Positions 24,904 to 54,244 of a stretch of DNA of 64,000 nucleotides are shown piece after piece. Every line of letters begins with the position of its first letter. Within the stretch, counting starts at the first letter, position 1. The DNA is taken from the NCBI GenBank assembly GCA_905147135.1, contig LR990041.1, positions 23,667,712 through 23,731,711 on the forward strand, given 5' to 3'. A model generated the notes under the pieces. It saw only the letters and a program-made list of their open reading frames with translations. It was not told the origin of the DNA and searched no databases. Source of the DNA: Blastobasis lacticolella. Taxonomy: Eukaryota; Arthropoda; Insecta; Lepidoptera; Blastobasidae. The position numbers and the translations under genes are program-made.

Positions 24904-25585
24904 TTACTTGCCCGCATGTATATCATGTACGTACTTTGTCCAATGCTCCATTTCGAGGTCCCATCCGTAAAGCATCGGATGCATTGTGAACTGTACATCA
25001 GGTTTCCGCTTAGGGGTGGCCGTGGCCTGTTCTAGGAAGCCTTCTTCTTTCAATTTCTTCCATAAATCGACTTTGCGTTGTTTTTTCTTCTTAGTTGGTT
25101 TCGTTTTAGTTCTCCTACTACGTGTTGTAGTAGTGATTCTAGTAGTCGCAACCCTAGTAGTAGTACTTCTTGGAGTTGTAGCCCTAGTAGTTGTTGTCGT
25201 TGTAGTAGTTGTCGTTGTTGTTTCATCAGGAATTTCATCCAAATAGGAGGATTCGCTCGTCATCGTTGCCGACGACGATATTGACAATGGTGGTAGAGTT
25301 GCAATAGTGGTCGTTCCTTTCGTTGTTGGTTGTATCGGTTCTTCGTATTCAGAAGAAGATGATGGAGATTCAGATGAGGAAGGAAGCGACACTTTACCAA
25401 CACCAGCTTCATCTGTTTCAGGAAACTCAATATATGTTTCATACTCAGAAGAAGAAGAAGGAGTAGGGGCTGGCGTTGTTGTCGTCGTTGTTGTTGTCGT
25501 TGTCGTTGTCGTCGTCGTAGTAGTCGTTTTACTTGGCTTTGTACGCTTTGTTCTTGGTGTCGTCGTCGTAGTCGTCGTGGTCGTG

Positions 25586-25620
<35 letters not shown>

Positions 25621-25643
25621 TCTCTTAGTCCGTGTCCGTTTTA

Positions 25644-25677
<34 letters not shown>

Positions 25678-25741
25678 TTTCGTCCGCTTAGTCGTAGTCC
25701 GCTTAGTCCTTGTTCGCCTAGTCGTCGTTGTCGTCGTCGTT

Positions 25742-25779
<38 letters not shown>

Positions 25780-28700
25780 ACTCCGCTTAGTCCTTTTTCG
25801 CTTCGTCGTGGTCGTCGTCGTCGTCGTCGTGGTCGTTGTTGTAGTCGTCGTTGTCGTTGTCGTCGTCGTTGTTGTCGTCGTGGTAGTCGTCGTGGTCGTC
25901 GTGGTCGTCGTGGTCGTCGTCGTCGTCGTCGTGGTCGTCGTCGTCGTCGTCGTCGTCGTCGTTGTTGGCTCTGGCTCTGGTGTCGTCGTCTCTGGAGATT
26001 CATAGTAAATGTCTGAACTTTCCGAACTTTTCGGTGTTTCTTGCGGTTCTTCTTCTACTGATTCTTCCTCCGTCTCGGATTCCTCTTCAGGTTCTTCTGT
26101 TGTTGTTGTTGGTTCGGTCTAATAGATAAGAAAAATGAGATACTGGTAGTACGACCCTGTCAAGCCTGAGAAGTCCGCCGGAATAAGTACCATACCTTTA
26201 TCTTTTGCTGCTTCTAAGCAAGAATGATTGTATTATTGTGCATAAAATAGTTGGGAAGGACTCCGTCAGTCCTGGAATGGCGGCCTGGAAGAGTACTATT
26301 GATTTTTTTTGTTCTACTCTCAAGAATAAAAAAATAATACGTGTGGATATAAATTATTTGAATGATTTGATGCTTCGCGGTGACAAACGAGTAGACAGCC
26401 CACATGATGGTAAGCGGTAACTGTCGTCTATATCTATGATTCATGCATTAAGGTTACACGAAACCAAAATGCAACCTATGGGGTTGCATTTTGGTTTCGA
26501 CCGGAACACAATAATGCAAGCATTGTTGCTTGGCGGCAGAAATTCTTAAGGCGGTGGTACTTGCCCAGGCGTACTCCTCAGGCTTAGTAGAGCCCTACCA
26601 CCTGATTAAATAGGTCTGGCTTCCTACTCCTATTGGTCTCCTTCGCTCGGTGTTTGGCATCCTTAGTTACATCCTTAGTCCAGTTTGTTGGCAAGCATGT
26701 CATTTTTAACGACATTAAGCTTCTTGGGCCTCTCCTTCCCGTGCCTGGCGGGGGTGGGATGGCAGACATTTGTTCCTAACGTTTATACATAGACCCACGA
26801 AGGAGAAATTCAAAGCGCTTTTCTAGTAGAACAGCGGTCCCTGGTTGGCAGATTTACCGCTAGCGGCTTAGCCGGGATACATCGTTAGAATTAGGAGACC
26901 ACTAACCGTTGTTGTAGTCGTAGTGGTAGTTCTGGCCATTTTAGTCGTGGGTAATATATCCGCATATTTCCTTGGTAACTGACTGAACAATCGCCTTATA
27001 TGGTTTATTTCGAACCACATCTTCTCACACCATTCCACACGTAGGATAGCAATTCCCACATTGTCTGCTTTGAACCTCTTAGATCTCTTCAATAATTCGA
27101 CCATGTATCTGTACCTGAAAGGAGCAGTTGACTCTAGTAAGTATCGAGTAAAGGAAATATGGCATCGCGTGGGTGATGCCCCTGGTATTGCAAACGTTCA
27201 TAGGCTGCGGTGACTGCTTTCCGTCAGGCAGACCGTATGCTTGTTTGCCACCTTGGTATTATAAAATATATATATATATATATATATAATAAAATGCCAC
27301 TAACTAACTACTACACTACTAACTAATAAAGAACTTGACGGAAAAAAAAACTGACATGGCCCTATTGTAAAATTAGAATAATGACGTTTCAGAAAAAGAC
27401 CTAGCACCCTTCTTCAACGAAATGTGGTTCTTGTCAAATGTGTCAACATTTGACGTAGTAGACGTTGACACCAAAGTTAGACAGTATAAACCGACAAATT
27501 TTAAATGGTGTTCAATAACGAAGGCGGCTTATTATGGTTGTAAAATACCCAATAGCGTCGTATAATATTTCCTCTACATAGTTTATTATTGCCAGTAAAA
27601 TAAATGTAGTGTACTCGTTTTACCGCAATCTGTCAAAATAACCTGAAGTCGTGGTACATAATTAGCCGTCACCCATGCTATCTGACATACTACAGACATA
27701 GAAATTGGTTTCTGAATGACGTTTAAGAAATTTCATTGGCTTTGCTAGCGTTATATTAAAACTATGATCAAACTATAGCTTTGTATGAAGCGCGCTCGAT
27801 TAACACTCATCTTAATAAAATTGCTGTGTAATTTTTTTTTAATAAACTAACCTTTCAATTAATTCTCCGGAAACATAGCCCACTTCAAAGAAATACGAGT
27901 CCTCGTAAGACCACCGAATGTCGCGTAAGTCTTCCATTAAGAATCTTTGTAAGTTCTCTTCCAATCCAATCTGCAGAGCAAGCACAAATACATCAGAAAT
28001 GCAAATTGTAAATTACCTTTTCCTGGGAACTCTATCAGCGCAGTTGCAATATTAAAGGCCTTAGTTAAAACATATCAGTCTGGTAAGTTATTGTGCGACT
28101 AAAATAAAATTGTATCATTACTTCATAATATAAGTAAAGGATTATAGTTTTAGTTTGGCAGTATATTACTTTATCAGGAAGATAAATTTTATCTGAGGAT
28201 TGAAAAATCGGCCCTTAGTCTTGAATATGCATAATAAAGGTTGCACATCGTCATATACAACACAAGAGCATAAGTGCATGACCATCTGAAGAATAATTTT
28301 CCATGCAGCTGTTAAAATGATATGGTCGTGCGATGTGATGTAAAATATTAACAAGTATAAAATTTTCTAGTCGTAGTATACGAGACACAGACACAAAGAA
28401 ATTGGACATAGAGGCAAAGCACAGACGTGAAGATACTATTTTTTAATATTTTAAGTTCACAGTCTTATACGATGGTGGCGCCCTCAATATTTTTTACGAC
28501 TTTCTTGCCAGACTATAATAACGCCTTAACACAAGACTCGGTCGCTATATTACGGGCACAAACCTCTTCGGTTTACGTAATTCCAGAAGTGGAAGTTTGT
28601 AAATAGTGATAATAAAAAATTATTAAAAACATCTCAAAAATAAAAACGTATTCTGACAAAATGACATGACATGCATATGGTATACTCCATGGTACCATGA

Positions 28701-30123
28701 ATTTAAAGTTACCCAGTAGACCTAGGTACTCACACGTATCAATTGCTGTAGTCTGATCCTCACGCGCTTGCCGGCGGGGACCGGAGCGAAGTCTATCACG
28801 GCAGTCGTTGCCGTGGCGGGTCCCCACCACGACTCTACGTGTACCACTGTAATAAAATAAATAATAAGTAAATATTCGTGGACAAATTCACACAGAGCCA
28901 TGTAGCCCCAAACTAAGCAAAGCTTGTACTATGGGTGCTAGATAACTGATATACTACTTAAATACTTTTTAAAATACGTACTTATTATACATAGAACACC
29001 CAGACCCGTAACAGAAATTAAAATTCATCATTTCAATTTCTACCCGGCCGGGAATCGAACCCGGGACCTCTTGCGTGGCAGACCTGTTGACCATTGAAAC
29101 ACTCAGGTCGTCACTGAAACATAAACAGCATTTAGACTGGTTCTATCATCACACAATATCACGTCATACGCAACATGTAACCGCATACTGCTGGTGTAGA
29201 ACCTCCTACATGTTTTTTTATACCTCTAAGGTGGCAAATGAGCTTACGGCCCGCCTGATTTTAAGCAGTCACCGCAGCCAATGGACGTTTGCAATACCAG
29301 GGGCATCACCCACGTAAAAACCTTTTCACCCCTTTCTTGAAGAATTCCATGTTGTACTCTCCAGGGAAAACCTCTCCAGGTAGTTCATTCCACAACCTTA
29401 GTGTGCGTGGGAGAAAGTTCCTTTGGAACCGCACAGTTCGCGACCAATTTGGCTCCAAGTTGTGAGGATGAACTCCATGTCGTTGGCGAGCGGTGCGATG
29501 TAGAATGAGTTTACCATAATCTCCACGCATATCGATACTATGGTGCCACTTTGGGCACCCGATTTTTTTACTCTAGTAGAGGAAGAAAACGGACCGGCAG
29601 ATGGTAAATGGTCACCGCCGCCCTGGGGAATCATCTAATTATTTCCTGGATATGTGGGCATATATTTAACAATTATATAATATGCGCCGTGGATCTTCCA
29701 GCTATCCGAACTAGCCGCTTTGGTTCAACTTTTATAATGCGTACGGCTACGGTACGAATACGTTGATCACTATAATCACGTTTTCAAGAGTAGAGTGAAT
29801 TAGTTGTTCCTAGACAGGCATGCTGTGTCTTCGGCCGCATCATCATTTACCATCAGGTGAGATGGCGGTCAAATTTCGGTTTAGTCTGATAAAAAAGCAC
29901 CTAAAGCTGACCTCTTCTCAGTAAGCATGCATGAAACAAACAAGATCGTCGAGCTTATTTGTTTCATCTGAAGTCCTATACTTAAGAATAAAAAACAAAA
30001 ATAAATTACCAAATATTGGCCAAAATAAAGTTTTCGGGAAATATCACTATGTTGTGCGTAAGTTTATTGAGACTTACCCAGCATGGAAAGAACTATAGCG
30101 AGTGCCGCACGTAGCAACTCCAT
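24904..30123 (-). CDS. Gene A: secreted Thr-rich protein, 566 aa, five exons (new family)
   Basis: Exons: 30123-30078, 28846-28734, 27970-27852, 27114-26907, 26118-24904. Donors are GTAAGT, GTGAGT, GTTAGT and GTTAGT; acceptors follow pyrimidine tracts; phases are 1,0,2,0. Exon 1 encodes a signal peptide (MELLRAALAIVLSML). Exons 2-4 form a compact conserved part with VHVESWW, YFFEVGY and MVELLKRSKRFK, and an aromatic-rich helix (VEWCEKMWFEI). Exon 5 has an acidic stretch (about residues 170-190), a long Thr tract broken by KRT/TKR groups (about 212-378), a Ser-rich part, a second Thr tract, a basic run near 490-510 and a conserved end: WKKL at 515, GFLEQAT, YGWDL at 546. It looks secreted and heavily O-glycosylated. 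Function unknown; gene B is its tandem paralog. Confidence 0.85.
25471..25970 (-). repeat. Threonine-coding trinucleotide tract in gene A
   Basis: On the minus strand this is mostly ACG with ACA and ACT codons, in frame throughout, interrupted by short basic groups such as TKRTKPSK, IKRTRTKR and RKRTKRS. The matching Val-rich plus-strand and Arg-rich minus-strand frames are artefacts of the repeat. Gene B lacks it, so the tract has expanded in A or shrunk in B. Confidence 0.9.
26360..26600. repeat. LINE 3'-end debris and hairpin in gene A intron 4
   Basis: It contains the phrase GACAGCCCACATGATGGTAAG, typical of lepidopteran LINE 3' ends, and a perfect 15-bp inverted repeat (26461-26475 and 26481-26495, arms AACCAAAATGCAACC) with a 5-nt loop. 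Non-coding for gene A. Confidence 0.5.
26590..26772 (-). mobile_element. RTE-like LINE C-terminal relic in gene A intron 4
   Basis: Related to 13753-13940 at DNA level (TTCCTACTCCTATTGGTCTC, then CTCTCCTTCCCGTGCC). On the minus strand GTGRRG and later TNWTKDVTKDAKHRAK are recognisable. It is degenerate. Confidence 0.55.
27165..27300 (+). mobile_element. LINE 3' end in gene A intron 3
   Basis: The phrase GGGTGATGCCCCTGGTATTG is followed by CGGTGACTGCTTTCCGTCAG and a (TA)n tail. The same segment in the other orientation lies at 29200-29300, so both are 5'-truncated copies of one LINE family. Confidence 0.6.
28862..29112 (-). mobile_element. SINE family A, full length, in gene A intron 1
   Basis: Head to tail on the minus strand: A-box region at about 29100, B box GGTTCGATTCC near 29060, body, CAAGCTTTGCTTAGTTTGGG near 28915, and an ATT-rich tail at 28862. 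It is transcribed in the same direction as the host gene. Confidence 0.85.
29200..29630 (-). mobile_element. 5'-truncated LINE, ORF2 C-terminus, in gene A intron 1
   Basis: The frame 29530-29306 reads RTVRFQRNFLPRTLRLWNEL, then FPGEYNMEFFKKGVKRFLRG. This is the typical C-terminal tail of a Jockey/R1-type ORF2 (R-F, then RLWN-LP, F-G, FK). The 3' untranslated part follows to 29200. Confidence 0.7.
29690..29890 (+). mobile_element. LINE 3'-end relic, family J, plus copy
   Basis: DNA and frames match the minus-strand relic at 30425-30795 in reverse: GTGGATCTTCCAGCTATCCG, then CTAGACAGGCATGCTG and ACCATCAGGTGAGATGG. Heavily decayed. It lies in intron 1 of gene A. Confidence 0.5.
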
Positions 30124-30424
30124 GTCATCAAATCCTCGTGCGTCTTAGCCGCAGACTTCTAAAAATAATTGAAAAAAGCATATAATTAGGTATATCTTTT
30201 CAGCGCATAAAACCGACGCCTAACACCAACTCGGGATTCGTTGGCGTTCTGCGAGTTTGTACAACTAACTAGTATTTTGATTCTCATTCAACTTTACGTG
30301 CGTTTGTTAATTCATCATTATTTTGTTACATAATGATATGATTTAGATAATATGGCTGACATGCCATACTATTGAAAGCGAGGCGTTCTTAACGCTAGGC
30401 GTCTTTTTTACGTAACACTAACCA

Positions 30425-30795
30425 GGCAATTGTCCGCAATCTCATCTGGTGGTAAGTAATGATGCGGCCGAAGATTGAGCGTGCCTGCCTAGGAACAGCC
30501 TATTCACTCTAGCCTTGAAGGCGTCCAGATAATAATGATCAGGAAAAACAATCGCAGGCAACGTGTTCCATTCCTTGGCTGTACGCATTATATAGGTTGA
30601 ATCAAAGCTGCTCGTGTGCATAGCTTGAAGATCCACGACAAAGGATGAAGAGTTCGCCGGGACTATGTTCAGAGGAATTAAAGACATGGTACAGCTTACC
30701 TGTGCTGAATAAGTGACAGCAAGAATTTGGCTTTCACGCCTTTGCTGTATGGTTTCAAGTAATATATTTCGTAAGATTGGATTCTTCGTATACAC
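30425..30795 (-). mobile_element. LINE ORF2 C-terminus relic, family J
   Basis: The frame 30795-30442 ends with AKEWNTLPAIVFPDHYYLDA, then FKARVNRLFLGRHAQSS. This is a LINE ORF2 tail (EWN-LP, FP, FK-RVN-LG). The same family has further 3' ends at 30958-31140, 48880-49060, 50262-50620, 54930-55180 and 63752-64000, all on the minus strand, and one plus-strand copy at 29690. Confidence 0.75.
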
Positions 30796-30957
30796 CTACT
30801 GTTATGTAGAACTTTCTCACTGTGAGTGATATAATTCACAATGTAACATCAATAAAACTTGCCAATTAACGCATTTTGCCTATAAATGAAACTAATTGAA
30901 CGAATTTCATAACGTGAATTAAGCAATTTGTGTTGGATAATCATTTTATGTTTTTCT

Positions 30958-31140
30958 TAGACTAGCCAGGCATTTAACCGCAATCGCACCAGATGGTAAG
31001 TGACGATGCGGCCGAAGATGGAGCATGCCAGTCCAGGAACAGCTTATTCACTCTAGCCTTGAAGCCTTCCAGGTTATAATGATCAGGGTACACACCAGCA
31101 GGTAACGCATTCCATTTCTTAGCCGGACTCATTATATCAT
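30958..31140 (-). mobile_element. LINE 3'-end relic, family J
   Basis: It shares AGCCTTGAAG, GATGCGGCCGAAGATGGAGC and TTATAATGATCAGGG with 30425-30720. It is too broken for a continuous frame. Confidence 0.65.
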
Positions 31141-31759
31141 TTTAAATATATTATTTCTTGCACAGGCAATAGCAAATAATAGACAACAATAATTTGACCT
31201 CCGTAGTTGATAATTAAGGGGGTACGCTTTTTATACAAATTTTATGTAACGTTTTAAGTACATTCTTGCAAGTGTTTGATGTTTTTATGTGCCACAAGCT
31301 GGGTTTCCAATCTTGCTGGGAGAATACTTTCTGCTACACCTGACGATGAGATAATCGCATTTCGGAAGGATGCCATAACAGCTTAGTGGGCGCTAAACTT
31401 GGTTAAGGCTGTGTGGATGCCTGAGGATCAAAGGGGCAGGGATGATGTCGGCTGTAAGCATGTGTTAACGCAGTTGCTAGACCGTTCTTCGCGTGCGAAC
31501 TCGGCAAAACTGGGGGCAGTATCACAGCCGGAGCCTGGTGCGGGGCTCAACGCGCTACCATTTCCTCACCAGCGGCGCAATTTTTTCAATTGTTCAATTG
31601 AATTCAATTCAATTCAATTGATTTATTTTGATAAACATAAAGGAGACAGTCTAAAATTTTCCTAACCACCAGCCGGCATAATGAGAGTTGTAATGAATAA
31701 AGCTTATGAAACGTAATATCCTCGCGTAATTATTTAAATTCTTTAGCTAGCCATTTTTT

Positions 31760-32010
31760 TTATATTGATGTTTAAAATATTACTAATTTGCAATGAAACG
31801 AAGGTATTCTTGGCATGAAATTATGAACACACCCGGAAGAAGGTATGGTTGCACAAACTAATCTGACCCGATGGCCAAAACTGGAACCAAGTGCCGCCAT
31901 TTTGAAATGTCATGTCAATGCCATTAACAGTGACGCTGTCACTGTTAATGACAAATATAATGACATGCCTGTCATTGTCACTGCCACTAATGACGAATGA
32001 AACTCCTTAC
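31760..32010. repeat. Repeat with a hairpin
   Basis: It contains a perfect hairpin, CATTAACAGTGAC (31922-31934), loop GCT, GTCACTGTTAATG (31938-31950). The left part (AACTAATCTGACCCGATGGCC) is similar to 44948-44970, so both belong to one non-coding repeat family. Confidence 0.5.
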
Positions 32011-32082
32011 TCCGTTAGGAGGACTTGCCCTGTGGTTGTGATTTCTACGGCGATGACAGGCTGTAAAACCAAATTTCGTTTA

Positions 32083-32440
32083 TGACTCTTTTCTGAGTTA
32101 ACACTAAACGATGGTCTTACGGTGAGGGAAAACATCGTGATGAAACCAATAGGCTAATCACGTAACGCTGTAGCCAACAGTTCTCTGATTTCAATTTTTG
32201 AAATCAGACTATTGTTTGCAACAGAGTTACGTAATTAGCCTACTGTACTTCAGTCGTAATTAGGCGACCGCATTCATAATTCAATCTGGTCAGGTTCCCC
32301 TGTTAACAGGGTCACGGAGGTCAGATGGCACTCGCTCCACTGTAATTATCTGATCTACCAAATCACGGTTAAGGCAGACCCCGGGCCCTTACGCGCGAGA
32401 GTACATCCGGGACATTAACGCCAAGGTGACTGTGTTGTAC
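32083..32440 (+). mobile_element. SINE family B, interrupted by a MITE
   Basis: The body starts at GACTCTTTTCTGAGTTA and the 3' half at AATCTGGTCAGGTTCCCC; the tRNA-like head is absent. A TA-flanked palindromic insert (32152-32240) breaks it. Confidence 0.75.
32152..32240. mobile_element. 89-bp palindromic MITE, TA target duplication
   Basis: The arms GGCTAATCACGTAACGCTGT and its near-complement at the other end pair along about 40 bp, around a short TTTTT loop. TA flanks both ends (32150-32151, 32241-32242), as in Tc1/mariner-type insertions. Confidence 0.7.
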
Positions 32441-33200
32441 ATACCATGATTCTAAGGAAATCTTCATTTTGGGCACATCCGTCGGCCATTTTATGTAACA
32501 TTAAATGGTATGTCCCGGGGCACGCCGCAATACCAGTGTTTTCTCAATGCATTACACGCATTATTGAACACAATGCCCTCTCCTCTCAAAAGGAGCTTTT
32601 TCTTTCCTCATTGATTTATCTTCGTTATGACAAAAAAACTTCTTACTCCGGGCGTAAAAGGAGTTTCTTCTTTCATCATTTACTCTACGGCTTGATCCAG
32701 TGTTGCATGAGTTTCACATGAGTGTTGCAGTTTTGCTAAAAATATTTATTTTTCAATAAATAATTGTGAAGAATTGGCTAGACTTGGATGTCTTTTTTCA
32801 ACTGATATGAGTTCCGTATTTTACATTCTTCCGTTTTTCATTCTCTTTGTACCGGCTGGATCTTTGTGAACACTTTCAATGAACCGCTAGACCGCATCCT
32901 TTACACTCAAATATCATTAAATTCTTGAGTAGTCATTATTCTTAAAATAGTGTTACAACAGATAAAAAAAAATCACAATCTTGATGTTATGAGGTTAGTT
33001 ACACAGATTAACGTATTTTTTCCAAGGGAGTTAATTACAAATTCAGATGTCACAAACATTATTATTATTATTACAATTCAATTCTATCCATTTATTGGTA
33101 AAAAAAATGTATTATTAACAACCTTACACTACTCTTATTTGGTAGACGCGACAGCGAATGGTCAACGTAGATGACGTATTGAAGAATTATATAATGTCAA
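32441..33200. other. Insertion filler between halves of the nuclease-like relic
   Basis: Short frames only (91 and 74 codons), with no motif I can name. AT-rich. Confidence 0.3.
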
Positions 33201-40133: not shown

Positions 40134-42992
40134 TTAGTTTGTTGTGGTTTTTTGAACATTGAGTAAATATTCACGATACGATTTTTTAAAAGTAAACTTG
40201 GACTTAATGCTACGTAATGGCGGAGGAATGTCATTCCAACATTTGGATGCACGATAGCTGAAACCTCCTCTAAATGCCGCAGTTCTGTGTTGCGGTATGG
40301 AAAGGACAATGGAACAGGATCTTACCGAGTATCTAGTTGAGGCAGAGTAACGCCAAGTGAGCTTGTCGTATAGGTATTTGGGCTTATTGAACTTTATTAT
40401 GTCGTGCAATTGACAAGCGTACATTAATGTTAAGCGATGATGCATTTTTAGAAGATTTGCCTTGTTAAGGAAAGGAGAGACATGTGTACGGGGTGGTATA
40501 GGGAAGCAGAAACGAGCACAGGCGTTCTGAATTCTTTGTACTATATTCTCAGTTTTTTTTATAAAGGCAAGGACCATACACTCCTATACAATAATTTAAT
40601 TTAGAAAGAACTAAGGTTTCACATAGTTTAATCCGCATTTCAACGCTTATAAATGATTTGATGCGATAGAGGACTTTTAACCTATAAAAACAGTTTCTAG
40701 CTAAATCAATAACATGATTTTCGAATCGAAGCTGCGAGTCAAAGTTGAGGCCCAGGTTGCGAGCTTCCGAAACAAACTCAAGAGGCTCACCCATGATTGA
40801 GACTTTAGGTTTTAGTGCTGCTATTGATTTTATTTGATTTTTCGAACCTATTATCATAAATTTTGATTTAGTCTGATTTAAAACAAGACAGTTTCTCTCG
40901 CTCCATTCAAAGACTCTGTCTAAATCATCGTTTAAGCTTTTGATTGCCACATCGATATCATTACGGGCTACAGGGACGTAAACTTGGATGTCGTCGGCAT
41001 AAATATGGTATTTACAGCTACGAAGACAGTTAACAATATCTGACGTGTATATTATAAATAGAAGAGGACCTAAAATCGAGCCCTGTGGTACTCCTCGTGT
41101 AACTGAAAGGGAGTCGGATGTTATAGCATTTCCATCAGATTTTCGAATCACGACTCTCTGATGACGCCCGTTGAGATAACTATTAAACCAATTAAGTGTA
41201 CCAGAATCAAAGCCATACAGAGTTAACTTCTTTTGTAATACTGACAAGTTGATGGAGTCGAAGGCTCGTGAGAAATCTAAAAGTACTAGAATCGAGCCCA
41301 TTCCTACATCTTGATTTTTAAGGAGGTTGTCTACCACTTCCAATAAGGCGGTGGCAGTACTTCGCCTTGTCCTAAAGCCGGATTGCAGTTCAGGAAGGAT
41401 GTTGTGCGATTCGCAGTAAGCAACTAGCTGGTCGTAAACAACTTTCTCCAGAATCTTGGATAAAAAAGGCAAAATACTAATGGGACGAAGATCTTTTAGG
41501 TCAGTTGCATTATTTTTTTAGGTAACGGGCGCACCAAGGCACCCTTCCATTGCTCAGGGAAAACACCGCTAATTATTGACCTGTTTATTATTGTTGTAAT
41601 AATGGGAAGTGTTTTTGGAATAGTGAGAATAATCATGTCTCTAGAGATGCAATCCAGGCCCATAGCATTCGACTTGATGCCCAAAATAATCTTTGCCACT
41701 ACATTCTCATGAACAGGTTTTATAACGAATGTAGCATCACTTAGTGTAGGCAACTCACAATCCATGGTATCAGGTATGATAGAGCCCGAATTACCAGGAA
41801 TAGTTAGGAAATGTTTGTTAATAGCATCGGGATCATCAAAGTAGGTAGGAAGATCTGATGAGGTTTTAAAGTTTGGTAAAACCGATGACTTTAAATTTTT
41901 CCATAATGTTTTGCCGTCTTTTAATTTGCTATTGATCATGTTATTGAAATAAGCAGTTTTTTCTGCAATAATACTAGAAATTACTAAATGTTTTAAAGAC
42001 TTGTAATTGTCTTTATCCTGCTGTTCGTTAGATAGCTTATATTTAGTACGCGCCTTGTCACGCAAACTCATCATATACCTGACGTTGCTGGTCAACCATG
42101 GCAGCATGCGATCACTTACTGTTATACATTTCTCGGGGGCAAACAGATCAAATAGGCTTATGATAGCACTATTAAATAAGTCAACCATGTCATTGACATT
42201 TTCCAAAAGAGTGATATCATGCCAACGAATGTTTTCAAGAGCCGATTCAAAGTCATCCAAGTTTATGTTTTTTAAGGGCCTGTGTAAAATTGATTGACTT
42301 TGAGTTTTTCCCTTTTTGAGTTTTAAATTAGCAAAAACTGCCGAATGGCCTCCAAGTTCAGGGATGTGTACAACTGAAGTATTCGTTACGCTCGCATCTG
42401 TAAGGAATAAGTCAATAAGTGTAGCACTATGCGAAGTATGGTGAGTGGGTTGAGTAATATGGTTACTTAAACTAGAGCAATATAGAAATTGATGTAAAGC
42501 AACTGTTTTGTAATCGTCTATGTCTAATAAATTAATATTAAAATCGCCCATGAGTACGATGTGGTCATAATTAGTAAACGATGATATTGAGTCAGTTAAA
42601 GAATCAAAAAAATTGACAATATTCACCCAGTTCGGCCTGTACGCTGTCCCGATAAGAAGGCGGATTTTATTTATAGTCAAAGTGATCCACATTTGCTCGA
42701 CTTCAGCGTGGGTGATTGGATGAGGTTGTATTCGGATAGTCAACCCTTGCTTGAGATAAAAGCCCACCCCACCACCGCGCGATCTGGAGAGACCGCGTGG
42801 GCGCGGAATGTGCCGTAAGCGATACCCTGGTATAGATGGAGCACAAAAATCATTACCCTCACTTAGCCAGGTTTCATTTATTGCCATAATTTCAGGCATT
42901 TCCCGCATAACTAGTGACTGAAGTTCGTCGTGTTTATTGCATAGTGATCCAACATTTAAAAGGCCTAACTTCAGAAAACGAGTATTAATCAT
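40134..42992 (-). pseudogene. LINE ORF2 (endonuclease and RT), two frameshifts in A-runs
   Basis: Met at 42992 starts an endonuclease with N13 (LLNVGS), E40 (INETWL), GDFNINLLD and SDA-type motifs. The RT follows with ILPFLSKILEKVV, D in LVLLDFSRAFDS, GVPQGSILGPLL and HIYADDIQVY (near 41000). The C-terminal part ends at 40134 with YRASKCWNDIPPPL. Only two lesions are visible. The frame slips in an A7 run (plus-strand T7, 41513-41519) between PLPKK and the RT, and in an A8 run (plus-strand T8, 40553-40560) after CLYKK. Both are single-base changes in homopolymers; otherwise about 950 codons are open and all catalytic motifs are kept. Confidence 0.9.
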
Positions 42993-43240
42993 TGTTTTTA
43001 AAATAAATATAGGTATAAATATTTTCTATTACTGAATAATATATGTATATATAAATTATTATTATTTCAAATGTATGTTTTTGGTATGAAAATAATAAAT
43101 AAGTAAAATTTGTTATAATAAATTCTCTACAAAATGTATAAACACAAGGTACTAAGTCTAGTCCGTTTCCTTTGGCAAGCGCAAAAAAATTTTGAAAACA
43201 TTTTGATAATACAAAACTAATAAAAATCTGAATGACTAAT

Positions 43241-44434
43241 CTAAGATGAAACAATAGGCCCGAAGATTTTATTGTAATCTTGTTGATTGCGAAATCGATG
43301 TATGATTGTGTCTTCGGTTTTCCTAGCAAAAATGCGGCCGTGCTTCGTCCAGACAAATCTCCATCTGTTCTCGCCTCCGGCCTTGCGAACCAGGTAAAAT
43401 AGATTACGGTTGGACTTAGTAAGACGCTCATTGACATAAAAAGGCTTGGCCTGGTGGTCGGGCAACCCTAGACCTTCCGTGTTAATGCCTCGTCGCGCGC
43501 GTGCACTTGTCAAGAGGCCGTCTTTCAAGGCTTGTCGGGACAAACGCACAACAATAGGTCGTGGTCTGGGAATTTTCTCTGGTTCCTTACCTCCTTTAGG
43601 ACCAACCCTCGTGGCACTTACGACGTCAGATTCCTGGAGGGAGAAGCTCAATTTCGTAGCAGCACTCATTACTACGTGCATTACGGACTCACCGTCAAAT
43701 TCGGGAATACCCGATATCTCCACATCATTCTGGAGTGATTGTTGTTCTCGGCTATTCAGATTTTCTTCCAGCTGTGTCAGAGAAGACAAAAGCCCCCGCG
43801 TATCAGATAATGACGTGTATTGTTCCTTTAAGTTCTGGACTTCAGTACGTAAGGTATTATTTTCGCCTTCAAGAGCTTGAATTCGGGCGTCGGCAGAATG
43901 TACGGACACAAACAAATCGGAAATTTGGGAACCTAAAAAGTCCGTTGTAGCTGTGAAGTCACTTTTCAGCTGTTCGATGGTGGAATTAAGTTCGGTCTTT
44001 ATGTCCTGCACGATGGTAGTGCGCAGATCACGAAACTTCAAATCGAGCATGTCATTTAACCTGGCTCCCAAGTTTTCCTCCAGTAGTTTAGTGACACATT
44101 CCAAGGTGAGCGCAGGAATGGAGCGGGCCTCTGCTTCCGAAGGTAAGCCCTTAAATGATGCGGGTGAGTCGGATTTATTTTGTTCAAAATAACTGTCTTC
44201 GTACGACATATCCATTTCTCTAGAGGCTCCCTTGCGTTGTTCTGGAGTTTCATGGGCCTTGTCAAGGCATGTTGGACAGCGCCATTTAGTCATAAAATCG
44301 CTTAAGTTGCTCCTGTACTGCTCAGACGGTATATTAAGGCATTTATAATGATACGTACGCTTGCACGATACGCATCTCAGCAAATGGTCAGCATCAATAG
44401 CTACAAGACACGCCAAACACTTCATAGTGCTCAT
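43241..44434 (-). CDS. LINE ORF1 with PHD finger and FP25-like domain, 397 aa
   Basis: Predicted nucleic-acid-binding partner of ORF2. An N-terminal C4HC3 PHD finger is complete: C6, C9, C21, C24, H29, C32, C53, C56. Residues about 100-230 are coiled-coil-like (LEENLGARLNDMLDLKFRDL, then QALEGENNTLRTEVQNLKEQ). Residues 240-300 resemble an RRM-like core (DVEISGIPEF). The C-terminus (PFYVNERLTKSNRNLFYLVR and FVWTKHGRIFARK) is the FP25-like domain also seen at 12400-12550. The frame is intact and starts at the first Met after the GC-rich leader. Confidence 0.88.
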   Translation of the reverse strand: MSTMKCLACLVAIDADHLLRCVSCKRTYHYKCLNIPSEQYRSNLSDFMTKWRCPTCLDKAHETPEQRKGASREMDMSYEDSYFEQNKSDSPASFKGLPSEAEARSIPALTLECVTKLLEENLGARLNDMLDLKFRDLRTTIVQDIKTELNSTIEQLKSDFTATTDFLGSQISDLFVSVHSADARIQALEGENNTLRTEVQNLKEQYTSLSDTRGLLSSLTQLEENLNSREQQSLQNDVEISGIPEFDGESVMHVVMSAATKLSFSLQESDVVSATRVGPKGGKEPEKIPRPRPIVVRLSRQALKDGLLTSARARRGINTEGLGLPDHQAKPFYVNERLTKSNRNLFYLVRKAGGENRWRFVWTKHGRIFARKTEDTIIHRFRNQQDYNKIFGPIVSS

Positions 44435-44696: not shown

Positions 44697-44914
44697 ACCA
44701 GGGTTCCACGATAGACCGCGAACAACAAAATGTTTCTGTCCTTATTGCGAACACGCCCACTGGGAGGAGTTTATCCACTTAAACACCACAAGAGCAAGCA
44801 GGAATTGATTTTAAGGTCAGGGACCAATCACAAATTATAAATTGTAAATTCCGACAATCGACCGACACAGATTGTAAGCACGTCAATACTACACCGCGGC
44901 GCGCGCGCAACTCA

Positions 44915-45071: not shown

Positions 45072-45114
45072 CGCTAATGTGGCCTTTTTAGACCCCTGCG
45101 CGGTTTGTCCCAAT

Positions 45115-45560: not shown

Positions 45561-46344
45561 GCAGATTTGATTTCTAAACAGAAACCTTTTCTTATTATCT
45601 GTCAGCAAACGTGCAGTGCCCGCAAAGCCAACGCACAGACGTCGTGTCGCACCCGCCTAGTCGTAGTGCCACGACCGCGTATTTACGTAGTCGTCGGCAC
45701 GTTTTCATTCCATAACTTTAGTTTTTGAATTTTAATTAGTTTCTGAATGAACCTAAATAGTTTATTTTAACATAGCAACGAAGGAACCGAGGGTTGCTGT
45801 CAAACTGTAATTATGTTATGGGTGACAGTTATACTCTTATTTGCTCATCTGCTCAATTGACACTGGGTTGCTTAAAAATATTCTTCTTCTCACCCTCTTA
45901 AGCAACTTTTTGTATGGTCTAATAGTGTTTAGTTCGAGTATGCGCAAGACAGATTAACTGTTCTTAGGTATGGCGTTCTTAACATTGCTATTATTGGGAG
46001 TTGTTATTACTGTCTGTCAAATTTAATTCCATTCTAGAAAGAAATATATTTCGCGCACAATTGAACACATTTACTAACGTTCAATCGCACCAACTTACAT
46101 ACATTAAAAACATCAAACCCATGAAGGAATGTCAATGAAACGGTACATAAAAGGAGACTGGGTAAGTATGTAGGGGAAGTGGACTATGGCCAAATAACAT
46201 TATCGGTATAGAATTTACATTAGCACCCTCAAATACATCCTTGTAGAGAAAGGCATCAAAATCTGACCGAAAATTCTTAAAAAAGAACAGGTATTTACTA
46301 GGCTCATTTTGTATGGGAAGTGCCCTATAAACCAATCTGAATTT
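45561..46344. other. Gene-free stretch
   Basis: A GC-richer patch lies at 45605-45700; the rest is AT-rich. No open frame or repeat that I can name. Confidence 0.35.
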
Positions 46345-47240
46345 ATTTGTCACATGTTTGTATGACTATAAATGCTTTTTTCTCGAAACTGCCGGGTCCG
46401 ATTTTGATGACGTGCGGCATAACAACAGAGCTGAAGGTGCTCAACCTATACTCCGTAACCTTGTCGCTGCTGGTTCAAAGAATACCGCACTTGTCATACA
46501 AGTATAACAAGAGATGCTTTTTTCTTGAATGTGTCGTGGTCGATTTTGATGTCGTGTGGCATAAGAACATAGTTGAAGGTGTTCAACCTATACTTTGTAA
46601 CCATGTTGCTGCTGGTTCAAAGAATACCGCACTTGTCATACAAGTGTGACAAAACTATGCTTTTTTCTTGAAACTGCCGGGACCGATTTTGATATTGTGT
46701 GGCATAAGAACATAGTTGCAGGCTGCTCAACCTATAAACCATAACCATGTTGTTGCTGGTTAAAAGGATATGGGAATTGCCATACAAACATGTGACAAAT
46801 AAATGCTTTTTTCTCGAAACTGTAGGGACCGATTTTGATGACGTGCGGCATAACAACAGAGGTGAAGGTGCTCAACCTATACTCCGTAACCTTGTCGCTG
46901 CTGGTTCAAAGAATACCGCACTTGTCATACAAGTATAACAAGAGTTGCTTTTTTCTTGAATGTGTCGTGTTCGATTTTGATGTCGTGTGGCATAAGAACA
47001 TAGCTTATGGTCCGCAACCTATACTTCGTAACCATGTTGCTGCTGGTTCATAGATTACGGCACTTGTCATACAAATGTGACAAACAAATGCTTTTTTCTC
47101 GAAACTGCCGGGACCGATTTTGATGCCATCTTGTACAAATATGCAGCTGAGGCACCCTAACCCATAGGTCATCATCGTAATGCTGCTGGTTCATAGACCA
47201 CTTTTGCCCAGTCTCCTTTGTATGAAAATCGTACAAACAA
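46345..47240. repeat. About 144-bp tandem array, six copies, 3' of gene B
   Basis: The marker ATGCTTTTTTCTCGAAACTG (or a close variant) recurs at 46372, 46514, 46657, 46803, 46945 and 47088, giving a period of 142-146 bp. Units also share GACCGATTTTGATG, CATAAGAACATAG and GTTGCTGCTGGTTCA. Short frames across it arise from the repeat. It ends a few bases before the stop codon of gene B. Confidence 0.9.
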
Positions 47241-47253
47241 TACAATTTGTAAA

Positions 47254-50200
47254 TTATAATATACTTGTTAAATCTTTTTCATCTAAAAAGTGCTGCCAAT
47301 GGTATTCGTTGAGGTCCCATCCATAGATCTGCGGATGCGTTCTTTTTGGCTTTTGAGGTTGTGCCTTGGGCTTCTCAGTCGCTTGTTCCAGGAAGCCGTG
47401 TTGTTCCAGTTTCTTCCATATGCTTGTTTTGTTCATCGTCTCCTCAATAGGCTTTCGAATCGAGCGGGTGATATTTTGAGTGCCCACGCGTTTGGTCGTG
47501 GTCCTTCTCGAGTTTGTGGTGGGAATAAGGGCAGTGGTAATCACAGCTGTAGTAGGAGAAAGACGAAGAAGAGGCGATACTTCCTTCGATACTGCAGACA
47601 CTTCTACAGATTGTGGTGGTGGTGTAAAATCTTCAGACTTTTCTACCTCACCGGATTCTTCGTCTTTATCTTCGTTGTAGTCTTCAGCAACTTCATCAGC
47701 ATAAGTTTTCTAGTTTAACACAGACATTAATTAATAGGGCAGTAATTTGTAACACTTAAGGTGGCAGCCTGGATGATTAATATAGATTGAAGTTTAGTGC
47801 TATTGAAGTGGTCACCAGTATCTGTAGGCAGTGACCACTCCCCATCAGGTGGCCCGCTTGCTGTTTAATTATTGTGTGACAAAAAAAATGAAGTTTCTAG
47901 AACAACAGGTCATCAAGGAAAAAATGTCGCAGATCAGACGGACAGTAGAACGTCCCATCAAATTATAATAATGAAAGTTTTTAAATGAGGAGTTTACCAG
48001 TAGGTATTGTCAATTGGTTTCAAAAAGCATCAATAGATGGCACTCCTAAAATTTTGGTAATTTTTTACCAAAAGGTTCAACGAAATGTATTTTAATACAA
48101 ACCTTTCATATTTGTATTGCGTCCATTCTTGATCCTAGTGTCCATGAAACGCTTTGACTCAGTCAGATGTTTGTTTTGTTTGTAATAATTTATTACAACC
48201 TCTAAAATTGTTAAAAGCTATTGATAAATACCATATTATCCAATACAACGTACCCAGTGTTTAGAACCTATTTCAAGCGATTATCAATTACCAAAATTGT
48301 CGGGGCGCCATCTATGGAGTGGTTAGGAATGCTTTAGATACCTATTGGAAAACTGCTCATTAACAAGACTATGCTTGTGTAGAGTCATGGCTTGTACCTG
48401 TGTAGTTTCTCTACCACTTACAATGTGGTCTATGGCAATCCCCAAGCCACAGACCACATTTAATGGGCATCCATGGTGGGACACAGGACAGTTAAATGAC
48501 CCAGATTAACAATCAACATCATTTCATGATATATTTAAAAAGAGTTTTATATTTTAGGTTGCCAAAGGTCATTCGCTGCGGACCTTGAGACTGGTTGCAC
48601 AGTCTCAAGGCGCCCCGGCTTCGCACGAGTATTAACCTTAATAAGTTATGTATTTAAACCTTCCTCACGAATTACTCTGTCTATTGGTGTAAACTACATA
48701 AAAATTCATAGTTTTTGAGTTTATCGCGAACACACATGTGGACAGACACGGCGTATTACTAGTAACAGACGTGTCGATTCCGCAGACGCCGGCCACCGTT
48801 GGAAAGCGCTATGAGGAAGGATTTAAATGCGATTTTCAATAATAGATACATATTTTTGTTATATTATACAAGACAGGCCTTTGAACGCCATCACATCTGG
48901 TGGTATGTCACGATGCGGTCAAAGGATGGAGCATGCCCGTCATTGCCCGTCTTGAAACAGCATATTCACTCTAGCCTTGAAGGCATCCAGATTATATTGA
49001 TCAGGGAACGCGTTCCACTCCTTAGCCGTACGCATTATTAAAGTAAAGTGCGGATAGCTGGAAGATCCACGACATAAGGATAATTATTGATTCAAGAGGA
49101 AGGTTTATAAGCAACAAAAAAGGGGTAGGTAGTTGTACGCGAACGAAGTCGCGCCGAGTACACTAATACTATGTATTGTGTTAAAAGAATGAAGAAAGTT
49201 AGTTAACTGGTCTGTACAGGCATACCCGTGGACTTGCCGCTTTTGTCTTGATAGAGGTGGTGGTTTTAGGCGGTTCGGTGGCCAATCTCAGTGCTTGGTT
49301 GTATTTCTTAGGCACCTGCGAGAGCATTTGGGTTAAGTGGGAGACCTCGAACCACATCTTTTCCATCCATTCCACGCGCTTTAAGGCAAGACCTATGTTG
49401 TCCGATTTATACCTCTCAGATCTCTTGAGTAACTCGACCATGACACGGTACCTGAAATAACCAGTAAACCAATAATAATAATAAGAGTATATAGTTCGAC
49501 TTGGGACCTCCACCTTACAGAATACCGCAGCTAAACCTTGCCTGTTTGCCTGCTGTATGAAATAAAATAAAAAATTACTTGTTAGATATGCTAGCTAATG
49601 CCGTCGTCGAAGCCAGGTTGACCAAGACTAACTCTGAGTAAGTCGGAGTCCAGGAAAAAACGGTTTTGGTAGCCGATTGGCATACCGTGACGGTATATTA
49701 TTATTATTTACTAGCCGTTCCCAATTTCTTTCACGCCCGCGCAGTTCGGAACGATGTAAACATTCAACTTTCCCATGGGACGCTGTAATTTTTCTGAGAT
49801 AAAAAGAGCTTTTGTCACTCGATAAGAACTTCCTATTAGTGAAAGTTTTTGAGTTTATTTATGACAAACTAAAATACGAATTTTTTCTCTTTTTAATATT
49901 AGTATTAATATAACCACCTGTCTATTATCTCTCCGGTAAGATACCCAACTTCAAAAAAATACGTCTCTTCGTACTTCCACCGCACATCGATGAGTCTCTG
50001 CGCTTTGTATCTGCCTGTGTTCTCTTCATATCTTATCTGCAGACACAACCACAAATAAATAAAATATCAGAATCCAAAACAACCCCTTCATTGGAACTTT
50101 ACCAGTGTTGCTGCGAAGTAATTCAAATTCAAATTCGGGATTAATTAATCTCTAATTAATCGTGAAAAAAACCTGCGCTTTCAGTTGACTGAATGTGTAA

Positions 50201-53200
50201 CCATCATCTAAGTAGGTAGAGGATCAGACGTCACTCTAATTTACCTGTTTTTTTATAGTTAGACCAGCCAGGCATTATACCGCAATCTCACCTGGTGGTA
50301 AGCGACGATGCGGCCGAAGATTGTCTAGGAACCGAAAAGCACGTTTGTCTAGGAACAGCCAATTCACTCTAACCTTGAAGGCGTCTACATTATAATGATC
50401 AGGGAACACACTTGTAGGCAACGAGATCCATTTCTTCCGTACGTCCTGCCGTACGCATTATAAAGGTTGAGAGATCCACAACATAAGGATGAAGCGTTCG
50501 CCTGAACCACGTCTCTCGATGGCGGAAAGTACAACTGCTTCGCACACTTTCCGAAATGTAAAGCAGACCGACATACGCGCAACCGTATACCGATGCTCGA
50601 GGCTCTACAGCTACGTTTCAATCAAACTGCGTCCACTTACTACACCTCCCATTAGGTAGACTGACGATCTGGTAAATATCGCAGGTATCAGCTGGATGCG
50701 GAAGGCATAAGACTGGCCATTGTGGAGATCTCTGGGGGAAGCCTATGCCCAGCAGTGGGCGTCCTCCGGCTGATGTGATAAGTGCATCAGACCCACCCTG
50801 AGCAATTGCTGTGTTCTTGTTCTCACGCGCTCGCCGGCGGGGACAGGAGCGAAATCTATCACGGCGGTCGTTTGCGTGAGGGGTGCCCACCACGACTCTA
50901 CGTGTACCACTGAAACTAAAAAAAGTATTTTCTGGTTTCCTACTCAATTATAAAATGTTGGTTCCAAAAATATTGGGGCGACATATACCGCTACAAAAGA
51001 GTAGCTCGAACTGATACTCATACAGTCGTCTATGCATACCTACGTCTTCAACTCCACATCCTATCTCATGTTTGCCAAAGTGCCTAGTCGTTTTTTATAC
51101 CAGTAAAGGTGCATCCAAATCTAGCGCGCAAGCGGGACGATGCATTAATCATATGAAACAATGAGAGGTTTACAATTTTTAAATAGATGGCGTTGTACTG
51201 AACTCTTATGTCAAGTTTGTACTAAGAGTTATACAGGAGGATATATCGTCGTAAATTGACTATAGCTAGCTCCACAGACATAACAGACTAAACACAAATC
51301 ACAAATATTCCCTGTTCGCTCACTCTACAATTATTATGAATCTTGCTATCCGTTTTTCGTCTATTAAAATAAGCTATAAGAAAATGACGCGCGCAATGTT
51401 TTGAACGTTCGACATGTTGCTCAAGCTAATATCGACCTGACGTTTCTCTTGAAACATCGGTGTAAACTTTATAATTTCCTAATAAAATTCAAACCATTTA
51501 AAATACGGTTTAATTTAGTGCACATTAATGTGAAACCGCAAATTATGGAAATACACCTGGATTATCTTTTCATCGGTAAGTAATTTCATTCGTGGTCGCG
51601 GCGATCGGGAATCAATTTTAGAAATTGTGACAAAATATGCATCGTAATAGTGTGAATTTGCAATCATTAAAATGCTTTACCTTAAAACAACATGCGATTA
51701 AAGATAGATTTAAAATTATTGGCAAATTAAGCAATATTTCGGTGATCGAAAATATTTTGATGCTAACAGGGTCGGATTTAGTATTCATTGTATAGAATTT
51801 AAATACTCAAATCTTGTAAATAGCGGTCCACAATTTTATGTGTATTAAGTCACATAGGCCAACCTGTGGATAATTGAGATACCGGTGAAATCATAACCCT
51901 CCTTTTTGCAAAACCAAGCACTGCCGATTCACGGATCGAGAGATCAAAATCATCATCTTACCTTTTATTATAGTGACAATATTAAATTATAAGGACAAGG
52001 TTAAAATAGGGCGTATTTTGTTTCGTATTTAAACTCGGTATGTACTCTCTGCTCCTGTATATAAAATTGTTTCTCTATGAGCTAGCCCACAACATGGGCA
52101 CGGACCATGGACTTACTACCCAAAGGGACTGCGCACTGCTTTGACTAAAACCGGACAGAGCGAGAATCACCATCGATAGTCCTTTGTCCCTTTCTAACAG
52201 TGTAAACACAATGTTATTGGCATAATCACCGTCATTCTAAATTGACAAGTTTCATGTTTGGTGTTGCCATTATTGGATAAATATATTTACCGTGAATTTG
52301 GTGTTATTATGAGGTAATCCGTACAATCCGAAAAGTAGTTATCAGAATGCCTTTTGATCTACTGAACGTTTCTCCGACATACGTCGAGTCGACATAATTA
52401 TTAACCGACTCACTGTTCCACAAAACAGATAAAAGAGTTCGGTAACGATTTATCCTACAACACTAGTTTCTAAAGAGAAGTGATAGTACTCGTCGATATC
52501 TAAATTTCGGGTGACAGCTGTCAAACTTAAATGTGTTATAACTCGGAACCCATTGGTTCTAGAACACTAGTTTCTAAAGAGATATGATAGTAGTCGTCGA
52601 GATCTGCATTTCGTATGACAGCTGTCAAAGTTAAATATTTTGTAACTCGGAACCCATTGGTCCTAAAACACTAGTTTCTGTAGAGAAATGATAGTACTTG
52701 TCGAGATCTACATTTCGTATGACAGCTGTCAAACTTAGAACTGTCATCCGAAATGTAGATCTCGATGAGTACTATCGTATTGCTCTAGGAGCTAGTGTTC
52801 TAAGACTAATCGTTTCCGAGTTACAACAGTTCTAAGTTTGACAGCTGTCATGCGAAATGTAGATCTCGACGAACACTATCATTTTTCTTTAGGAACGAGT
52901 GTTATAGCACCAATAGTTTAGGAGTTACTCCTCGAGGAGTGCTATCATTTCACTCTAGGAACTAGTGTTCTAGGGCCAATAGTTTCCGAGTAGCAGGGTA
53001 AGCTTGGGCTGGACCCTGGTGAAAACATGACCTTCAGATTGCACCCGGTCCAGCTCTCTGGCCCTGAGGTCGGTGTCGCGCCAAATAACAAAAGTAATTC
53101 AAAATTTGCATCAACAATGGTTGCAACACTAGAAAGGGACACAGGACCCTCGATGGTGACTCTCGCACTGCCCGGTTTTATTCAAAGCAGTGCGCAGTCC

Positions 53201-54244
53201 CTTTGGGTAGTAAGTCCATGGCACGGACACATGTCCGATTAAAAAAATCCAAACAGTCATTTATTAAATTTTATTGGTCCTTGTGTATATATTTGACATA
53301 TTATCACAAAAATGTGACATCTATTGACAATAATAAAAACTATTTTTTTAAGCCATCTTGAAAATCTATCATTGAAGACATGCACTTTTGCCGTAGTATA
53401 TTCGTGACCTTTAATTTAGTGCCATTTCGGTTTACAATTCTCCCATATTTTTCTCATATTCTATAAGAATGGGATGGTTCAGTTGGTTAACATCAGCCGG
53501 TCTGCCACCCAGAGGTCCCGAGTTTGATTTGCGGCTGAGCAGAAATTGAAATGATGAATTTTAATTTCTGTTACGGGTCTGGGTGTTATATATGTATCAT
53601 AAGCATATATTTAGAATAGAATAGAATAGAATAAATTTATTGCACAGAAAAACAACACCACAAAATAAAATATAAAAAGTAAAGAGTAAAAAAGAAATTA
53701 ACAATAAAAATAATATATCATTAGAAAAACACAGTTTTTTTTAAATATTATTGCTACACAGTGACGTTGCATATGCATGGGTGTGTTGTGGTGTGATGAT
53801 GTGTGCTAAAGGGACCCACTCAGCATAAAGCTCCGGCGAAACCGAAGCGCTGGTTTTCAGTGAGCCCTGCCGAGTGAGGTACGGACGAAGAAGCTATATT
53901 AAATTAAATATAATATAATAATTGTGTGTGTAGTGTTCTAACGAGTGCAGTGTCATACATAATATTTAAGTAAATATAAATAAAGGTAAAGAGAGGTTTG
54001 GAATTACTAAAGGATTAAAATAATAATTCGCTACTGTGTCAAGTGAAAATTTACTATACCTACAATTATATATTTTAAAATATGTAAGTAGTTTATCAGT
54101 TATCTAGCACCCATAACATGGCTTTGCTTACTTTGGGGCTGGAGTGCGCTGTGTGAATGGCCTAAACAAATTTTTTCTTTATATTACTATATTTCATTCT
54201 GACTTACCAGTTAAAGACATAAGAGCGATGACAGCATAATACAT
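47254..54244 (-). CDS. Gene B: secreted paralog of gene A, 316 aa, five exons
   Basis: Exons: 54244-54208, 50909-50797, 50036-49918, 49451-49226, 47709-47254. Phases match gene A (1,0,2,0), and exons 2 and 3 have the same lengths as in A (113 and 119 bp). Exon 1 gives a short signal peptide (MYYAVIALMSLT). Conserved blocks: VHVESWW, YFFEVGY, MVELLKRSERYKSDN, VEWMEKMWFEV, WKKL (263), GFLEQAT, YGWDL (294). Exon 3 is 22 of 40 residues identical to A. Exon 5 keeps the acidic stretch (NEDKDEESGEVEKSEDF) and a Thr/Arg-rich part but has no long poly-Thr tract. Exon 2 and 3 differences are often synonymous. It is secreted and Thr-rich, function unknown. Exon 1 is the least certain because it lies 3.3 kb upstream. 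Confidence 0.82.
47755..47880 (+). repeat. LINE 3'-end debris in gene B intron 4
   Basis: The phrase GTGACCACTCCCCATCAGGT followed by GGCCCGCTTGCTG is typical of lepidopteran LINE 3' ends. No coding part is left. Confidence 0.4.
47881..48879. other. Gene B intron 4, unassigned
   Basis: No open frame of note. A perfect 11-bp hairpin lies at 48583-48610 (CCTTGAGACTG, loop GTTGCA, CAGTCTCAAGG). Around 48380-48480 is moderately GC-rich sequence with GTGGTCTATGG repeated in inverted form. Confidence 0.35.
48880..49060 (-). mobile_element. LINE 3'-end relic, family J, in gene B intron 4
   Basis: It shares ATATTCACTCTAGCCTTGAA, ATCAGGGAACGCGTTCCA and the CCGTACGCATTAT phrase with 30425-30720. Confidence 0.65.
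49120..49180. repeat. Helitron-like 3' tail
   Basis: GGGGTAGGTAGTTGTACGCG followed by AACGAAGTCGCGCC resembles the end at 59560-59600. Only the tail is recognisable. Confidence 0.4.
50262..50620 (-). mobile_element. LINE 3'-end relic, family J, in gene B intron 2
   Basis: It has CCTGGTGGTAAGCGACGATG, AACCTTGAAGGCGTC and AAGTACAACTGCTTCGCACA, as in the other family J ends. Minus orientation. Confidence 0.6.
50655..50790 (+). mobile_element. RTE-like LINE 3' end in gene B intron 2
   Basis: The plus frame reads LVNIAGISWMRKA, a stop, then WPLWRSLGEAYAQQWASSG. This matches the C-terminus of the RTE relic at 56737-57123. It ends just before the exon 2 donor of gene B (50796). Confidence 0.75.
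51000..52097. other. Gene B intron 1, unassigned part
   Basis: A 60-codon plus-strand frame at 51401-51583 is followed by a GTAAGT, but nothing else supports an exon. No repeat that I can name. Confidence 0.3.
52106..53220. mobile_element. P-like foldback element with inverted satellite (1115 bp)
   Basis: Terminal inverted repeats of about 110 bp begin CATGGACTTACTACCCAAAG; the right end is their complement with few mismatches. The 8-bp duplication GCACGGAC flanks both ends (52098-52105, 53221-53228). The inner parts are tandem repeats of about 104 bp that run in opposite directions on the two sides and meet near 52737. There is no ORF of note. CATG-type termini with an 8-bp duplication fit the P superfamily; this is inference. 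It lies in intron 1 of gene B. Confidence 0.85.
52490..52990. repeat. Head-to-head satellite, about 104-bp unit
   Basis: Units contain GACAGCTGTC (52513, 52615, 52721 on one side; about 52840 on the other), GTAGATCTCGA and AACTAGTGTTCTAGG or their complements. Orientation flips at about 52737. The same unit occurs at 15240-15490. Confidence 0.85.
53470..54160 (+). mobile_element. SINE family A, split by a LINE 3' end
   Basis: The left part, 53470-53612, has the head and body; the right part, about 54068-54160, has AAGTAGTTTATCAGTTATCT and the 3' half. The break lies in the ATGTATTTAAAA region of the family. Confidence 0.8.
53613..54067 (-). mobile_element. 5'-truncated LINE 3' end with (TATTC)n tail
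   Basis: On the minus strand it ends GCAATAAATTTATTC followed by TATTC repeats, as does the LINE at 39665. It is inserted in a SINE. No coding part remains. Confidence 0.65.

Follow-up and report, generated by a model that had tools for sequence, protein, structure and literature searches.

A Low-copy Family of Probably Secreted Proteins with a Constrained Head and Dissimilar Tails in the Moth Blastobasis lacticolella

Genes A, B, and D and orphan exon C

The stretch of DNA analyzed, referred to as the window, comprises 64,000 nucleotides (positions 23667712-23731711) of contig LR990041.1 (C2) in the 577-Mb, 45-contig genome of Blastobasis lacticolella. Genes A and B lie on the minus strand within the window, and gene D, on the plus strand, and an orphan tail exon, C, lie outside it. 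Positions are those of the window for A and B and those of contig C2 for D and C.

Gene A
30124..30158, minus strand, probable 5' untranslated part of exon 1, from the A-D exon-1 alignment (end counted by eye)
30078..30123, minus strand, coding exon 1, the signal-peptide exon, 46 nt, MELLRAALAIVLSML plus 1 nt, phase 1
28734..28846, minus strand, exon 2, 113 nt
27852..27970, minus strand, exon 3, 119 nt
26907..27114, minus strand, exon 4, 208 nt, helical part of the head and beginning of the Thr stretch
24904..26118, stop included, minus strand, terminal exon with charged start, poly-Thr tail, RTKR-type motifs, and WKKL..GFLEQAT..YGWDL end

Gene B
54208..54244, minus strand, coding exon 1, the signal-peptide exon, 37 nt, MYYAVIALMSLT plus 1 nt, phase 1
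50797..50909, minus strand, exon 2, 113 nt
49918..50036, minus strand, exon 3, 119 nt
49226..49451, minus strand, exon 4, 226 nt
47254..47709, stop included, minus strand, terminal exon with charged start, short Thr part, two N-glycosylation sequons, and WKKL..GFLEQAT..YGWDL end

Gene D
C2 23737473-23737527, plus strand, exon 1, 55 nt
C2 23738487-23738599, plus strand, exon 2, 113 nt
C2 23750346-23750464, plus strand, exon 3, 119 nt
C2 23751893-23752109, plus strand, exon 4, 217 nt
C2 23763144-23765117 plus stop, plus strand, predicted last exon, 658 codons, Lys/Asp/Glu-rich

Orphan exon C
C2 23991517-23992197, minus strand, open frame of 227 codons, homologous to the end of the A and B tails

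Genes A and B are intact, with five exons and GT/AG boundaries, and give spliced products of 566 and 316 residues, respectively. Splicing confirmed the plan that an earlier note on this DNA had proposed for the two genes (GT/AG sites, phases 1,0,2,0, a length of 113 nt for exon 2 and 119 nt for exon 3, and a signal-peptide exon), and D, with a spliced frame of 826 residues, repeats the same phases and the same lengths of exons 2 and 3. The structures of A and B and of exons 1-4 of D can be read from the sequence itself. Counting both strands, the window has three start codons that lead into a hydrophobic stretch and then a GTRAG donor in phase 1, and two of these are the signal exons of A and B; exon 1 of D is the sole candidate in the 15.8 kb of plus strand scanned. 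The exon-1 regions of A and D align (score 49, maximum of 200 shuffles 16), and the alignment takes in a 3' splice site that precedes the A start codon by 35 nt; because this site is common to the two genes, each probably has a non-coding leader exon upstream. Such an acceptor is unsupported for B, as the A-B and B-D exon-1 regions did not exceed shuffles. A TATA/initiator start seen by eye close upstream of exon 1 of B was dropped, since the acceptor of A and D indicates a leader exon further upstream.

From the start codon of A (30123) to the stop of B (47254) is 17 kb. D begins 15.5 kb past the B start codon on the opposite strand, and C lies 226 kb beyond D. A and B are neighbors on one strand, as their description as a tandem pair had it, but tblastn of the flanks and genome searches make "pair" too narrow, as there are three genes and an orphan tail exon. 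In whole-genome searches the head is present at three loci only: the D head as query recovered nine exons, three per gene (E up to 1), and the B head recovered the same nine and one more on another contig (C26, E 0.985), these counts being lower bounds. A weak exon-2 match at C2:23819454 (E 0.083) was rejected as a 16-residue frame without splice context.

Several other sequences occur around the genes. In the window there are a DDE_Tnp_4 transposase fragment (1559-2041, plus strand) and a 330-residue open frame without a Pfam family (475-1467, minus strand); an uninterrupted 1002-residue frame (20797-23805, plus strand) in which reverse transcriptase scores above and endonuclease just below the Pfam cut-off, a non-LTR retrotransposon; and, in the interval separating A from B, endonuclease and reverse-transcriptase frames split into two pieces (40549-43025, minus strand), preceded by a 397-residue frame with PHD-finger and Baculo_FP_2nd matches (the whole at 40549-44434). 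Intron 1 of B contains nested inverted repeats (52092-53234; outer arms of 105 nt, 89% complementary, and inner arms of 187 nt, 81%) that look like a non-coding mobile element, and the far end of the window holds fragments of a reverse transcriptase (57386-57820) and of an integrase core (rve; 62525-62875), both on the minus strand. In intron 2 of D, open frames of 476, 1220, and 602 residues (C2:23740375-23747082, minus strand), antisense to the gene, resemble an LTR-type element. A 154-residue frame at C2:23927332-23927793 (plus strand), rich in Asn, Thr, and Ala and with many N-glycosylation-like sequons, is possibly a secreted low-complexity protein.

Constraint on the head and near-identity of exon 2

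The sequence blocks shared by A and B exceed chance, tblastn of the A head on B giving E values of 5e-22 for exon 4, 3e-18 for exon 2, and 2e-12 for exon 3, and comparison of the tail blocks 3e-15; A, B, and D are paralogs. The introns, which had been described as unrelated, mostly are so; in A-B, however, the sequence before exon 3 aligns (score 26, maximum of 200 shuffles 18.5), and that before exon 5 does so weakly (20.5 versus 18.0 shuffled). A and D have a common start of intron 4 (37 versus 14.5 shuffled).

In exons 3 and 4 (90 codons), dN/dS is 0.37 for A-B, 0.35 for A-D, and 0.43 for B-D, with bootstrap upper bounds of 0.72, 0.69, and 0.75, respectively; for exon 2 alone, the intervals of all three pairs include 1. 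The suggestion that selection acts on the protein is thus borne out as purifying selection on the head, with dN below dS per site, but the accompanying statement that base differences in exons 2 and 3 are often silent was overstated, because in Nei-Gojobori counts for A-B, replacements outnumber silent differences in exon 2 (11.0 versus 7.0) and exon 3 (29.3 versus 11.7). The first 51 codons of exon 4 have 18.8 silent and 29.2 replacement differences.

Exon 2 of A and exon 2 of D are identical at 111 of 113 positions, as compared with 186 of 270 in exons 3 and 4 (Fisher 1.9e-12), with a longest identical run of 71 and a dS of 0.03 versus about 0.9. The near-identity runs from the 5' edge of exon 2, continues as 34 identical nucleotides into intron 2, and is gone within 66 nt; intron 1 upstream of the exon has no similarity between the two genes. 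Because of the difference between exon 2 and exons 3-4, gene conversion of exon 2 between A and D is well supported. Exon 2 is also more alike than exons 3-4 in A-B and B-D (Fisher 7e-4 and 1e-4); the longest identical runs in these pairs (p 0.04 and 0.16) are weak evidence, and conversion involving B is suggested.

The tails have diverged in composition. Thr makes up 199 of the 566 residues of A, with runs of up to 54 residues and RTKR-type motifs between the runs, but only 33 of 316 in B, and the D tail is rich in Lys, Asp, and Glu, so that the description of the genes as Thr-rich fits A, hardly fits B, and does not extend to D. The Thr codons of A are chiefly ACG, with ACA, ACC, and ACT mixed in; ACG predominates in its longest Thr runs and is the sole codon in one run of 11, so that slippage alone could account for much of the tail. 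The last exon of D is a degenerate 18/36-nt array (Lys 265, Glu 142, and Asp 140 of 658 residues) that stays open for 658 codons, while the frames shifted by 1 and 2 bases hold 6 and 101 stops, and it ends with Ser-Glu/Ser-Asp runs followed by an aromatic tail. Judged by eye, the last exons of A, B, and D all open with a charged stretch, which suggests to us that they descend from a single exon expanded by different codon repeats; the intron sequence upstream of the D last exon, which has no similarity to that upstream of the last exons of A, B, or C, neither supports nor refutes this. The WKKL..YGWDL block that ends A and B is unmatched in the 200 kb holding D but recurs in exon C.

Nature of the proteins and alternative explanations

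All three proteins have a hydrophobic start, and the VES|WW site meets the −3,−1 rule in each, although A and D have further such sites; simple rules detect no later membrane-like segment in any of them. These features, assessed by simple rules only, agree with the secretion that had been proposed earlier, and A, B, and D would thus be cleaved and secreted. With a pI of 9.4-9.8, the head is basic. Cys occurs once in mature A, not at all in mature B, and once in mature D, in neither case near the C terminus. Exon 4 alone, modeled for A with B aligned, gave helices (mean pLDDT 78, pTM 0.48), and a fold search with this model returned no PDB matches.

Homology searches yielded no relatives. No Pfam family scored above cut-off in any scanned piece of A, B, D, or C: raw exon frames gave only DUF3439 (E 0.16), NrtR_WHD (0.33), and DUF6363 (0.15), all below cut-off; scans of whole B and of the A and D heads were empty even at E up to 10, as were scans of the A, D, and C terminal exons with the limit set at 1. 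A head profile had no matches among PDB sequences. In a set of 5.8 billion proteins whose insect coverage is unstated, none of 1122 candidates for B or 513 candidates for an alignment of the three heads reached E 1 or better, a negative result of little weight. Pattern matches in viral and prokaryotic contigs (43 and 46, respectively) included no relative, as is to be expected of an insect gene. Six sequence motifs were absent from the full-text literature searched, and the family was not recognized in that literature, which included parts of PMC9745057, PMC9432349, PMC9684489, and PMC11092239. The idea of an undescribed family thus stands with respect to these libraries and texts, none of which is a lepidopteran proteome, and is limited to them.

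Taken together, the evidence identifies A, B, and D as a real, constrained, low-copy gene family of a moth, whose products are probably secreted. The explanation that we favor, with moderate confidence, is that they are functional paralogs encoding soluble, secreted structural proteins, of a coating or adhesive kind, with fast-changing tails. The signal peptide would probably be removed after V-E-S, so that the mature protein would begin Trp-Trp, and the conserved module would be the head, which spans ∼130 residues, is basic and in part helical, has no more than one cysteine, and might anchor each protein to a partner or to other copies. The single long terminal exon would supply an unfolded, hydrated tail, the make-up of which would shift as codon repeats grow or shrink: poly-Thr, probably O-glycosylated, and mucin-like in A; short in B; and, in D, a polyampholyte of Lys, Asp, and Glu that includes Ser-Glu/Ser-Asp runs. 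Gene conversion would keep A and D alike in exon 2. The tissue that we would guess first is the labial (silk) gland.

A reading of lower, though appreciable, probability is that the proteins are secreted but do not coat; they might, for example, be mucins of the gut lining, proteins of the reproductive tract or semen, or salivary factors directed at plants or microbes. Nothing in the sequence points to a tissue, and fast-changing low-complexity tails are also known in the gut-mucin, reproductive, and salivary classes. However, Pfam detects no chitin-binding, cuticle, or enzyme domain, and A, B, and D are nearly without cysteine, whereas the peritrophins that line the gut are Cys-rich.

It is rather unlikely that D represents two genes, exons 1-4 belonging to a head gene whose tail was lost or undetected, the Lys/Asp/Glu frame being separate, and C being the old D tail, inverted. 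The strand and position of C would fit an inversion with one end in intron 4 of D, its tail block resembles that of A (46%, 67 residues) more closely than that of B (28%, 47 residues), and no upstream-intron similarity ties the D last exon to A, B, or C. However, a junction of exon 4 of D to C was rejected, as the best acceptor of C needs a phase-1 donor and exon 4 ends in phase 0; the Lys/Asp/Glu exon, in contrast, has an acceptor in phase 0 and opens with a Thr stretch, KVTTTRTKK, and would be joined to exon 4. A scan of 26 kb upstream of C revealed no head exon, and runs of N are absent from the 200 kb after the window and from the 30 kb around C, two stretches that lie 57 kb apart. That the blocks are transposon remains or decayed, functionless duplicates is highly improbable: frames of reverse transcriptases and transposases abound at the locus, and C is orphaned, but a head found at only three loci in 577 Mb (a lower bound) is not a repeated transposon, Pfam reveals no transposon domain, every exon is open, and dN/dS is bounded below 1 in exons 3-4.

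Returning to the secreted coating or adhesive proteins that we prefer, a bolder and more tentative proposal is that the family represents a new adhesive or coating class of moths, in which a single secreted head, one of whose exons is homogenized by gene conversion, is joined to tails that differ in chemistry (a poly-Thr mucin and a near-neutral Lys/Asp/Glu polyampholyte) arising by independent growth of codon repeats in a shared terminal exon. The different tail chemistry makes the family of more interest than a pair. Many coating and glue proteins of insects elude homology searches because of their fast evolution, and a family with a recognizable head and changed tails would make further members easier to find in other moths. 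It would also allow the origin, frame-keeping, and change in chemistry of low-complexity tails after duplication to be addressed, beside a converted, near-identical exon.

Comparison with known secreted coating proteins

Moth coating proteins are described in the available parts of PMC9684489 and PMC9745057 as hydrophilic, repetitive, duplicating, and fast-evolving, and sericin-1, mucin-1, and P150 of moth silk as marked by a CXCX- or CXCXCX-type cysteine motif near the C terminus and a high share of Ser in the repeats. A, B, and D resemble the latter in having a signal peptide, a low-complexity part, duplication, and fast change but lack a CXCX-type motif near the C terminus, so that membership in the silk sericin-1/mucin-1 group fails, and they are not Ser-rich (38 of 566 residues in A, 19 of 316 in B, and 31 of 658 in the D last exon). 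Conversely, the parts of these two papers considered do not mention, for silk mucins or sericins, a Cys-poor head like that of A, B, and D or the WKKL..YGWDL end of A and B. A mucin in the broad sense has a stretch rich in Pro, Thr, and Ser that takes up about one third of its length (PMC9745057, in part); A reaches this share with 268 of 566 residues, whereas B (70 of 316) and the D last exon (57 of 658) are below it.

D is charged, hydrophilic, and repetitive, with Glu/Asp/Ser-rich runs, like the dentin-like silk protein of Yponomeuta cagnagella (PMC9684489, in part), but a comparison with the table row for that protein only gives 461 residues, 16.3% Glu, and a pI of 4.31, versus 826 residues and a mature pI of 8.05 for D. 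Zonadhesin-like silk proteins have TIL/EGF domains and 12-15% Cys, according to the portion of the same paper considered; A, B, and D differ in having 0-1 Cys and no Pfam family. They likewise have no Pfam match to light-chain fibroin (PF05849), and none of their pieces has a cuticle or chitin-binding domain above the Pfam cut-off. L-fibroin exons and a Lipoprotein_11 gene are present in this genome, above Pfam cut-offs, in keeping with its lepidopteran origin; the L-fibroin lies on a different contig (C8) from A, B, and D, which are therefore without linkage to that silk gene.

The salivary glue (Sgs) mucins of Drosophila have a signal peptide and a long Thr-rich tail and are secreted as a glue. 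We know of no counterpart of the A/B/D head among them, and the comparison, which draws on the signal peptide and the long Thr-rich tail, is one of how the proteins work only. In function, the A/B/D family may be comparable to secreted coating or glue proteins.
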